Assembly (NCBI GenBank): GCA_003221195.1 | Contig: QHQO01000020.1 | Location: forward strand, 1-64,000 | Direction: 5' to 3' | DNA: 64,000 bases | DNA from: Verrucomicrobiota bacterium | Lineage (GTDB): Bacteria > Verrucomicrobiota > Verrucomicrobiia > Chthoniobacterales > UBA10450 | Part shown: positions 2,079 to 7,288 of the stretch, one piece after another | Numbering within the stretch: the stretch's first letter is position 1 | Layout of the letters: every line of letters begins with the position of its first letter | Notes under the pieces: generated by a model | Database searches by the model: none | What the model was told of the DNA's origin: nothing | Seen by the model: the letters and a program-made list of their open reading frames with translations, nothing else | Made by a program: the position numbers and the translations under genes

Positions 2079-3473
2079 CTAAGAGCGCGTGGCTACTTCT
2101 GCCTCTTTGACTACAGGAATTGATTTCACCGAGTCCTCGATTTTCTCCCTCAAACGCCGGCTCCAAACATATCGTCCCAACAACACTTTTACGGTGGCTG
2201 TAAGCGGGACGGCAAGAAGGGGACCGATTATCCCGCCAATGATCAAACCCCAGACAAAGATCGACACGATCACCGTCATTGGATGCAACCCGACGTAATT
2301 CCCAACAATTCGCGGGGCGTAAAATATGCCTTCGAGATTTTGAACAATGATGAAAATGCCAGTCACAATTAGAGGATGCGTCCAGTCGCCCCATTGGAAA
2401 GCTGCAATCAGAACGGCCGGCACCCAGCAGATGATGATCCCGATGTAGGGAATCATGGTCAGCACGACAACGAGCGCACCAATCACCGGCGCAAAATTGA
2501 GACCGGGAAATATTGTCAGCGTTGTGCCGATGAGGATCCCATCAACCAGACACACCAGTAGTTGCCCTCGAAAATACGCAGTGACGTAGCTGTTGATTTC
2601 TGACAAAAGCTCGGCGACTTCGTCTCTGAGGGGCGACGCGCGTAAAGGTAAATATTCTCTCCAGTTCGCTTCAATCCGCGGCCTTTCGTTCAACAGAAAA
2701 AAAAGGTAGATCGGCACCAGGATTAGGCTGAGCAAGAAACCTGTGACACCAAGAAAGCCACCGATGCTTTTCTTAAGGATATCCCAGAACTTTTCCATCA
2801 GCGTCGGAAGTGCCTGTTGCAAATTAGGCATTTGTTTTTCGACGTACGCCTGGATGCGCTGGCGTTCGGCAGTGGTCAGCTTTGGCGGGCTCGGCGCGAT
2901 TGTTTCAGCAGCCGGGGTAGTCTCGAAAGCTTTAGGTGTAGGAGAGACAGTCGGTTGCGCATGAGGAGAAGGAGAGGGTATCGGTCCGATGAGCCAGTTG
3001 GTAAAACTTGTCGATGCAGATTTCGTACGGCCACTGCCGAGGAATCCGAAGGACTGATCGAATCGATAGATTAGATCCACAATGTAGTCGCGGGCTCGCT
3101 CGGTATAAGCAGGAACTTGCTTTGCGAAATTCGCGCTTTGTATTGAGATGGTCGGGACGAGCCACGCCGCCAATCCACCGAGAGCAAAAAAGGCAATGGC
3201 AAAAAGAAGAGCTACCGCCTTGGTGCGACTGAGCGTACCGCGAGACATTTTCGTCACCAGCGGATCCAGCAGATAAGTCAGAATAACCGCGATAGCGACT
3301 GGGATCAGGATCGGTTGGAGGAAACTAATGACATTAGCGCTGGCCCAAATCACCGTGCCGATAATCAGAATGAGGAGAACCACACAGAAGGCTGTGAGAG
3401 CCGCCCACATCACTTTGCGCTGCCACGGCGTGGGATAACCGCTTATGTTCGTCGCGAGAACGTCGGGCGTCAC
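2079..3473 (-). CDS. AI-2E family transporter (PerM-like permease)
   Basis: 464 aa multi-TM ORF; motifs ILIPVAIAVILTYLLDPLV and PYIGIIICWVPAVL...GNYVGLHPMTVIVSIFVWGLIIGGIIGPLLAVPLTA typical of the AI-2E/PerM family. Confidence 0.9.
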   Translation of the reverse strand: MTPDVLATNISGYPTPWQRKVMWAALTAFCVVLLILIIGTVIWASANVISFLQPILIPVAIAVILTYLLDPLVTKMSRGTLSRTKAVALLFAIAFFALGGLAAWLVPTISIQSANFAKQVPAYTERARDYIVDLIYRFDQSFGFLGSGRTKSASTSFTNWLIGPIPSPSPHAQPTVSPTPKAFETTPAAETIAPSPPKLTTAERQRIQAYVEKQMPNLQQALPTLMEKFWDILKKSIGGFLGVTGFLLSLILVPIYLFFLLNERPRIEANWREYLPLRASPLRDEVAELLSEINSYVTAYFRGQLLVCLVDGILIGTTLTIFPGLNFAPVIGALVVVLTMIPYIGIIICWVPAVLIAAFQWGDWTHPLIVTGIFIIVQNLEGIFYAPRIVGNYVGLHPMTVIVSIFVWGLIIGGIIGPLLAVPLTATVKVLLGRYVWSRRLREKIEDSVKSIPVVKEAEVATRS

Positions 3474-5293
3474 TGGGTTTGATTTGTCTTTGTTGGAGGA
3501 CCGTTGCCAATTGGCGCCTTCGTTCTTTCGATCTTGTTCGCCAGGTTCTTATTGTTTGGATCGAGCGCCAGCGCTTTTTGCCAGGATTCCAGAGCTTCCG
3601 AAAGCCGATTCAATTTGAAATAGGCGTCACCAATGTGCTCAAAGATAACTGGATCATCGTGGTCGGCAGTTTTTGCAGCACGGAGCAGGTTGCTCAAAGC
3701 TTGATCAGGTTTGCCTTTTCGGTACTCGACCCAACCGAGGCTATCGAGGTAAGAAGCGTTATTAGGTTCTATCTCGAGCGCGCGGTTAATCATCGTTTCG
3801 GCTTCGTCCAGGTTCATGTTGTGATCGGCCCACATGTAGCCGAGATAATTGCAGGCTTCCGCAGAGTTCGCCGGGTCTAGAGCGATCGATTTGCGAAGAA
3901 GATCAGCTGCCTTTTGGTACAGGCCGGCCTGCTCTGCTGTCGCGCCATAGTTGAAATAGAACTTGGCATTTACCATGTCATTGCCCTGGTCGAGTTGCGC
4001 TTCGCGCAGTGCCTCCTCAAAGGTCGCCACGGCCTGCTGGGTCTGTTTCGCCTCGCTTTGGGCAATGGCCAGATAGTAAACGATCTCCGGCGCCCCCGGA
4101 AATCGACGCCGGGCTTCTGTCAGCAATCTGACCGCGCGATCGGCATCTTTTAAAGGGCCAAGCAGCAGTTCCGACAGATGCAAATATGTGCCCACGTGAT
4201 TTGGATTAATCAGCAGGCTTTGCTCATAATTTGCGGCCACTTTCGCAAAGATTGCTTTGGCTTCGTCAACTCTTTTGGCGCGTTGGAGCGATCGCGCTTC
4301 ATCATCCAGCACCTGTGCTAATAAATCGTAGGTTTGGTACTTTTCAGGATGCTCTTTGATGATTTGCTCGAGCATCTCAACTGCTTTACCGCGCTGATTC
4401 GTCAGGATAAAACCAGTTGCCAGTTTCTCTCGCGCATTTGCATCGTCAGGTTGCAACTCCAGAACGTGCAGATAAAGCGGAATTGCGTCTTTCAATTGCT
4501 GGGAGGCTGCATAGTAATCGGCGACATCTTTTAGAATCGCAGGATCATCGCCGGCGTGTTCGGCTGCCTTTTTGAAAATTTCGTTGGTCCTTTTCAGTTC
4601 GTCGGGCTTCGGCTGTGAATCGGACTTGAAAAGAATGGCCACGTAAAGTTTGCCCAGACGCATCCAGAAGTTGGCGTCGTCGCTGCGAACCTTTGTGGCA
4701 CGATCCAGAATTTCCAGCGCCTTTTTCTCTTGCCCGGCCGCAACTTCGATTTCCACCAGGCGCTGGTAACCTTCGATGTCTCCGGGATTGAGGGCAACTG
4801 CCCGATTGGCATAATCGATAGCCTGATCGGTTTTCTTAAGATATTTCGCATAAATAAATGCGAGTTGTTGATACGGGTCTGCATCTTTCGGGTTTGCCTT
4901 GATTGCATCTTTCAACACGTCAATCGCCTGCGGAAAATCATCCTGCTCTATCAGCAAAGCTGCTACGCGCGAAGCGAGTTGCGATTGACCGGGATCGACA
5001 TTTAGCACTTTGCGATACGCCTCCAGCGCACGATCCATCTCGCCATTTTCTTCGAATGACATTCCCTCGACAAAATGGACTAGCGCATCCGCTTTATGTG
5101 CGCCCTCCAAACGCAGGGCGAGATCGGCAGCCGGCCTGGCATAGAGCGAATCGTCCTGGCGACCAGTCTTTTTTGTTGTCGCCGACGAAGATTTCGGCGT
5201 TCGAGCGACTGCTGCACTCGCGCCAACGAGAAAAGCGAACGCAATGAAAAACCACCTGCGCAGCGAAACGCTCCGCTTTTTGGGCTTCCTCAC
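3470..5293 (-). CDS. TPR-repeat protein, probably exported
   Basis: 607 aa; N-terminal hydrophobic signal (WFFIAFAFLVGASAAVA) and many TPR units (ALEAYRKVLNVDPGQ, AIDYANRAVALNPGD, ALSNLLRAAKTADHDDPVIFEHIGDAYFKLNRLSEALESWQKALALDPNN). Confidence 0.85.
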   Translation of the reverse strand: MRKPKKRSVSLRRWFFIAFAFLVGASAAVARTPKSSSATTKKTGRQDDSLYARPAADLALRLEGAHKADALVHFVEGMSFEENGEMDRALEAYRKVLNVDPGQSQLASRVAALLIEQDDFPQAIDVLKDAIKANPKDADPYQQLAFIYAKYLKKTDQAIDYANRAVALNPGDIEGYQRLVEIEVAAGQEKKALEILDRATKVRSDDANFWMRLGKLYVAILFKSDSQPKPDELKRTNEIFKKAAEHAGDDPAILKDVADYYAASQQLKDAIPLYLHVLELQPDDANAREKLATGFILTNQRGKAVEMLEQIIKEHPEKYQTYDLLAQVLDDEARSLQRAKRVDEAKAIFAKVAANYEQSLLINPNHVGTYLHLSELLLGPLKDADRAVRLLTEARRRFPGAPEIVYYLAIAQSEAKQTQQAVATFEEALREAQLDQGNDMVNAKFYFNYGATAEQAGLYQKAADLLRKSIALDPANSAEACNYLGYMWADHNMNLDEAETMINRALEIEPNNASYLDSLGWVEYRKGKPDQALSNLLRAAKTADHDDPVIFEHIGDAYFKLNRLSEALESWQKALALDPNNKNLANKIERTKAPIGNGPPTKTNQTQ

Positions 5294-5418: not shown

Positions 5419-5523
5419 TTACGCTTTATATCGGAGCCGTTTCTTATGCCGATTCGCTTTCATGCGCTTGCGGCGCTTATGCTTCGCAATTTTCGCTTTT
5501 CGTCTTTTCTTGAGAGAGCCCAT
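5419..5523 (-). CDS. Very small basic protein, AURKAIP1/COX24 (mS38-like) domain family candidate
   Basis: 34 aa ORF not in the supplied track: MGSLKKRRKAKIAKHKRRKRMKANRHKKRLRYKA*. The KK(R)R..KI.KHKRRKR...RHKK pattern resembles short bacterial AURKAIP1/COX24-domain proteins. Confidence 0.7.
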   Translation of the reverse strand: MGSLKKRRKAKIAKHKRRKRMKANRHKKRLRYKA

Positions 5524-5602
5524 TCGATTTTCAAATTCGCGAGTTCCGATTCAACCATCAGATGCGCTACAATGCAACCCAGTTCTTACATTGCTCGTAA
5601 CA

Positions 5603-7288
5603 TCATCTCTTTAACATTTCATCTCGCTTCCCCTTAAACTCACTTTCAGGTTTCCACTCTGGAAATTTGTCGCCGTTCACGACCTGATAGCCAACCTCGA
5701 ACAGAAGTTGAATATCCTGCACTGCGCCGGAGAGGTCCCAGTTTGGATTAACTTCGTCCGAGACCTGATGGTAGTGGTGCGCAATGTAATCGTCTTTCTT
5801 TTGCTGGCCGAAGTCTGCTGGTTTTCCGATGAAATCCTTGCCGCCGCCAGTGTAGAGCGAGGGCACGCCGCGCTTGGAAAATTCGAAATGATCGGCACGA
5901 TAGAAACCGCCTTTCTCCGGTTGACTGTTCGGTTGCGTCACTCGGCCATTGCGTTTTGCGGCAGCGGTCAGCAGATCATCGAGTGTTGAATTGTTGTTGC
6001 TCAGGTCCTCGATGTCGCGCGTTTTGCCCCAGGGATTCACGGTGTCGATGTTGATGTCAGCCAGCGTTTTTTCCAGCGGATAGAGCGGATGAAGCGCGTA
6101 AAATTTCGAGCCGAGCAATCCTGCTTCTTCAGCAGTCGTGGCCATGAACAAAACTGATCGTTTCGGCGGCGGATTTAATTTTGCGAATGCCGCCGCGAGC
6201 TGGATAAGCGAAGCAACGCCGGAGGCGTTATCGACCGCGCCGTTATAGATCTGATCGCCTTGCAGATTGTGATTAAGTCCGAGGTGGTCCCAGTGCGCCG
6301 TGTAAATGATATATTCGTCGCGCAACTTCGGATCGATTCCCTCGAGTTTGCCGATGACGTTGTGCGATTTAAAGGAGCGAAGCTGTTGCTTGATGTCGAT
6401 ATTAGCCTTTGCATTGATCGGCACCGGCCGGAACTCTTTTGTTATCGCCGACTTCTTCAGCGCCTCGAAATCCTCACCACAAGCGGCTAGCAATTTCTTC
6501 GCGGTATCGAGCGTTATCCACGAGCGCGCTTCTACGGTGTCCGCGTTCTTATTTGGCGAATCAATCTCGTAGTTCTCCTTGCCCCAACTCGTTCTTACCA
6601 CGGAATATGGGTATCCAGCCGACTCAGTCTGGTGGATGATCACAGCGGCTGCAGCGCCTTTTTGTGCTGCGATCTCATATTTGTAAGTCCAGCGACCGTA
6701 GTAGGTCATCGCTTTCCCTTTAAACATTTTTTCATCGAGTTTGGATGAATCTTTGGGATCGGGAATCGGTGGATCGCCAATCAGCATCAGCAGGGTCTTG
6801 CCGCGAACATCGACATTCTTGTAGTCGTCCCATCCGTATTCCGGTGCGACGACGCCGTACCCGACGAAGACGACTTCCGAATTATTGATCTTGATTTCCG
6901 GTTGAAGACGCGCGGAGGACGCAATGAAGTCGTCGGGGTACTTCAGGTCGATCGTCCCATCGCGTACCGCGAACGACATTCGTGGTTCGCTTTTGATTCC
7001 AGCCAACGGAACCTCCTGGGTGTAACCGCCGTCTGGGTTTCCCGGCTTCAACCCGATTTTCCTGAACTGATCCGTTATGTAATTAACGGAAAGTTCCTCG
7101 CCTTTTGTCCCCGGTGCACGTCCTTCGAATTCATCCGACGCAAGAACCTTGATGTGCGCCAGTAAACCGTCCGGCGTAATCGCCTCCAACGCCGGTTCCA
7201 GACGCAACGCCAATTCATCCACAGCGAAAAGCGAAGTCACAGCGGTAAGAGAAATCGCAATCAACCAGCCCGAAATTTTCATGTCCAC
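5603..7288 (-). CDS. M28 family metallopeptidase (PA domain plus zinc aminopeptidase)
   Basis: 561 aa; signal peptide; motifs [59 protein letters not shown]. Confidence 0.93.

Follow-up and report, generated by a model that had tools for sequence, protein, structure and literature searches.

The window, a stretch of 64,000 nucleotides from a soil verrucomicrobial genome, contains a 309-base gap between the genes for a TPR-repeat protein and an M28-family peptidase that holds a single open reading frame (ORF), all three lying on the minus strand (Table 1). The ORF translates into MGSLKKRRKAKIAKHKRRKRMKANRHKKRLRYKA*, a peptide of 34 residues in which 11 lysines, 8 arginines and 2 histidines account for 62% of the composition (56% for lysine and arginine together), and which is present in a single copy in its own genome. 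The preliminary description of this DNA had reported a very basic ORF of this length, strand and placement, and it is confirmed here as described. An ORF of this size falls below common cut-offs and would hence be missing from a default gene track.

Table 1. Features at the locus of the small basic ORF, here assigned to the bS22 family.
Feature	Position	Strand	Description
TPR-repeat protein	3470..5293	minus	607 aa; downstream neighbour; homologues follow the bS22 gene in 74/90 loci of the order
bS22 gene	5419..5523	minus	ATG to TAA, 34 codons
Short leader	5524..5548	minus	putative transcription start ~18 bases before ATG
Promoter-like element, conserved in the genus	5549..5577	minus	TTGCAT (5577-5572), 17-base spacer ending TGG, TTGAAT (5554-5549)
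M28-family peptidase	5603..7288	minus	upstream neighbour in the genus; occupies the hisG place of other families

A short ORF taken alone could be the product of chance; the conservation of this one could not. The ORF is carried by 91 of 98 close relatives (37 of 38 genera), and a profile search over 289 genomes from across the phylum recovers it in 283 of them, or in 248 of 251 when only those of good quality are counted. All 90 loci retrieved from the order share the position of the ATG start and span exactly 34 codons, and their 90 distinct DNA sequences encode only 35 distinct proteins. Mean heterozygosity over these loci is 0.13, 0.07 and 0.46 at codon positions 1, 2 and 3, and comparison of the window copy with the other 89 yields pS = 0.78 and pN = 0.057, for a pN/pS ratio of about 0.07, with pS near saturation in distant pairs. 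Close pairs thus provide a cleaner test of constraint. Within-genus comparisons show synonymous to nonsynonymous changes of 9:0 and 12:0, which, if changes are independent, random single changes would produce with P between about 1e-5 and 1e-8; in these same pairs coding identity is 88-99%, and the next 100 bases downstream show only 18-32% ungapped identity. The ORF is therefore a real gene under strong purifying selection. The two checks on coding status proposed in the preliminary description, conservation of the frame in related genomes and a synonymous/nonsynonymous test, both come out in its favor, the frame being conserved and the constraint being strong.

The assignment of this gene to a family requires some care, since K/R-rich low-complexity sequences can match by composition. 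The sole Pfam match of the window protein is PF08213 (COX24_C), which aligns over residues 1-29 (positions 1-29 of 33) with an E-value of 4.2e-4. The search against the AURKAIP1/COX24 model suggested at the outset thus finds the family, slightly below the cut-off (20.6 vs 23 bits), and the same model is matched by all 34 distinct family sequences scanned. The NCBIfam equivalog model for bS22 (NF047430) scores 12.3 bits against a cut-off of 34. Neither model, on the other hand, returned a match when scanned against the solved Flavobacterium johnsoniae, 9i5v and Borrelia bS22 stretches, taken as the matched parts read from single-sequence PDB alignments. As both models overlook bS22 proteins seen in ribosomes, sub-threshold scores do not exclude the window protein, and automated annotation will overlook many bS22 genes. 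NF047430 covers only part of the bS22 family and does not take in the window protein. Similarly, a search of the window's own genome with PF08213 at E <= 0.001 gave no match, which is an effect of the cut-off and not an absence. The THX model (PF17070) matched nothing anywhere in this genome, and a THX identity was accordingly rejected; an Rfam scan returned only a chance match.

Comparison with solved structures yields a consistent picture. A profile built from 20 diverse members from across the phylum (A3) was searched against all PDB chains and obtained 12 matches, all of them bS22 or mS38. The best is F. johnsoniae bS22 (E=3.6e-6), followed by plant mS38 (E 0.0011), with weak matches to actinobacterial bS22 (E 0.13-0.35) and to human mS38 (AURKAIP1; E 5.8); bL34, bL36, THX and histone chains are not found among them. 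In agreement with this result, profile A1 matched only bS22 and mS38 chains, and the single window sequence retrieved F. johnsoniae bS22 (E 0.0012), the 9i5v chain labelled 'AURKAIP1/COX24', mS38, Borrelia bS22 and nothing else. A set of near-invariant positions (K11, H15-K16-R17, K19-R20 and R25-H26-K27-K28) is common to the family and F. johnsoniae bS22. The AlphaFold2 model is a single helix over residues 4-33 (mean pLDDT 92), and the bend seen in ribosomes is absent from the prediction.

Hence, we consider it very probable that the product of this gene is ribosomal protein bS22 in its Verrucomicrobiota form, which would most likely occupy the predicted pocket of 16S rRNA. The protein is almost certainly a homologue of mitochondrial mS38 and a structural analogue of eL41, and the gene is a new and probably unannotated member of a known family; a literature search linking Verrucomicrobi* with bS22, AURKAIP1 or COX24 found no paper. 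The earlier assignment to an mS38/AURKAIP1-COX24 type is thus supported, both by PF08213 as the only Pfam match and by PDB matches restricted to bS22 and mS38. The accompanying claim that the protein is lineage-specific was wrong: its distribution across the sampled genomes, together with homologues in Flavobacterium, Borrelia, Actinomycetota and mitochondria, indicates a protein that is phylum-wide and older.

Two rival explanations dispute this identity or its functional reading, and a third disputes the gene itself. The peptide might be a small basic nucleic-acid-binding protein, akin to protamines or histone tails or to bL34, bL36 or THX, that resembles bS22 in composition only, as its basic residue content and a Pfam score just short of the cut-off would allow. 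Composition does not, however, account for the position-specific matches shared with F. johnsoniae bS22 or for a profile whose PDB matches are solely bS22 and mS38, and the THX model finds no candidate in the genome; we regard this explanation as very unlikely. The chances are slimmer still that this is a bS22 acting also or mainly outside the ribosome, for instance as a secreted antimicrobial peptide. The idea draws on the bS22 peptide of Cutibacterium acnes, which in vitro is inhibitory both to the growth of bacteria and to cell-free translation (PMC10085706), but human eL41 likewise inhibits cell-free translation and the effect may simply reflect charge. Moreover, the verrucomicrobial gene is single copy and near-universal across the phylum, a signal peptide is not visible in the sequence, and near-invariance under strong purifying selection is unlike typical bacteriocins. 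Finally, a chance, non-coding ORF would be short, would lie in an intergenic gap and would show no evident Shine-Dalgarno motif, all of which holds here, but synonymous-biased substitution and a frame that is invariant in 90 genomes refute it, leaving it a negligible probability.

If the window protein is a bS22, its place in the ribosome can be proposed by analogy with solved relatives. In known ribosomes, bS22 sits in a 16S pocket formed by h2, h27, h44 and h45 and touches H67/H68 of 23S rRNA, which adds an intersubunit contact (PMC10618245, PMC10085706, PMC6133939). In yeast, mS38 stabilises upper h44, and mitoribosome biogenesis and translation initiation are impaired when the protein is lost (PMC6582356), while the bS22 gene of Borrelia shows zero transposon insertions and is among the candidates for essential genes (PMC10618245). 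By homology, the window protein would be a component of the ribosome. As a small, very basic helix, it would most likely lie in the h2/h27/h44/h45 pocket beneath the decoding centre, where it would neutralise rRNA charge, brace upper h44 and contribute a further intersubunit contact through H67/H68; binding, position and effect on h44 are all deduced from those relatives.

The C-terminal end of the protein may add a particular element to this arrangement. In the window's order the chain closes with RLRYK, invariant in 90/90 loci, and then a single residue that varies, an ending found also in Akkermansia-type genomes; other members of the phylum end in RTWQK, LWG or simply RHKK(K). The known orientation of bS22 would put this tail on the 50S side, so that a lineage-specific bridge contact is possible. 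That it actually makes an additional contact with 23S rRNA, unlike any solved bS22, is a tentative idea that we hold to be rather doubtful.

The region upstream of the gene contains a plausible regulatory signal. In an upstream alignment of 31 members of the genus, GTTGCA and TGGTTGAATC are kept in at least 90%, defining an element of the form TTGCA(A/T)-17-TTGAAT in which TGG closes the spacer and which ends 25 bases before the start codon. Scanning the minus strand for sigma-70 promoters and terminators gave nothing useful, and the consensus scanner leaves this element unlisted because it requires the second hexamer to have A as its second base. We infer that the element would act as the bS22 gene's own promoter. 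No Shine-Dalgarno motif is evident upstream of the window gene. Elsewhere in the phylum, GGAG-type sites precede several bS22 homologues (L198, L202, L212), and none is evident in the window's genus or in Akkermansia-type genomes (L101 and the window compared), hinting that Shine-Dalgarno use might differ between lineages of the phylum. An idea concerning Shine-Dalgarno absence has been raised for mS38 (PMC6582356); as a rule for the phylum, a tie between bS22 and leaders devoid of this motif is ruled out by the GGAG-type sites.

The gene neighbourhood of bS22 was compared as well. A HisG homologue sits immediately upstream of the gene in 29 of 90 loci from the order, and a homologue of the window's TPR protein follows the gene in 74, often within 15-20 bases; among 42 loci examined outside the order, hisG precedes bS22 in 24 and TPR homologues follow it in several. 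With hisG upstream and TPR downstream both inside and outside the order, the ancestral arrangement, conserved across the phylum, was most likely hisG-bS22-TPR. This conserved order was noted among loci L008-L090, from the order, and L101-L116 and L198-L216, from other families and classes. A search of the window's family detected hisG in no more than 4 of the 62 genomes, every one from a single genus, or in 3 of the 28 that are of good quality; the genome of the window itself, assembled to 87% completeness, yielded none. The absence fits the published finding that one Udaeobacter genome has no identifiable histidine pathway (PMC7343977). The window's lineage, Candidatus Udaeobacter, has lost hisG and kept the TPR neighbour, and loss of hisG from all but one genus of the family would have left the bS22 gene in a new upstream context.

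The implications of these results are useful, if not surprising. One ribosomal protein is added to the parts list of nearly the whole phylum (283/289), including Akkermansia and abundant soil bacteria, in which length cut-offs and current Pfam and NCBIfam models can overlook it, and profiles A1 and A3 are ready for its annotation. The range of bS22 now extends well past the lineages with solved structures, and this bears on whether mS38 derives from a bacterial ancestor or was acquired by mitochondria.

Among known systems, the closest is F. johnsoniae bS22 (PDB 7jil chain 5), the best PDB match, which has a near-equal length (30 aa) and a colinear KKRxxxKxAxHKRxKRxxANRHKK core, but carries P instead of G at residue 2 and lacks the LRYKA tail. 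The bS22 of B. burgdorferi (PDB 8fmw chain V; PMC10618245) likewise comes from an unannotated tiny gene and shares the same core (E 0.05-0.5), although its gene starts with GUG and its 28-residue chain in the PDB has no tail. The Mycobacterium and Cutibacterium proteins (5o61, 8crx; NCBIfam NF047430) resemble the window protein in size (33 aa) and in their MGS start, yet their match is weak (E 0.13-0.35) and stops short of the RHKK signature, at residue 25. More distantly, mitochondrial mS38/AURKAIP1/Cox24 has a homologous K/R helix at its C-terminus (E 0.0011 for plant mS38), whereas its long N-terminal region and targeting sequence, and its import into mitochondria, set it apart from the verrucomicrobial protein.
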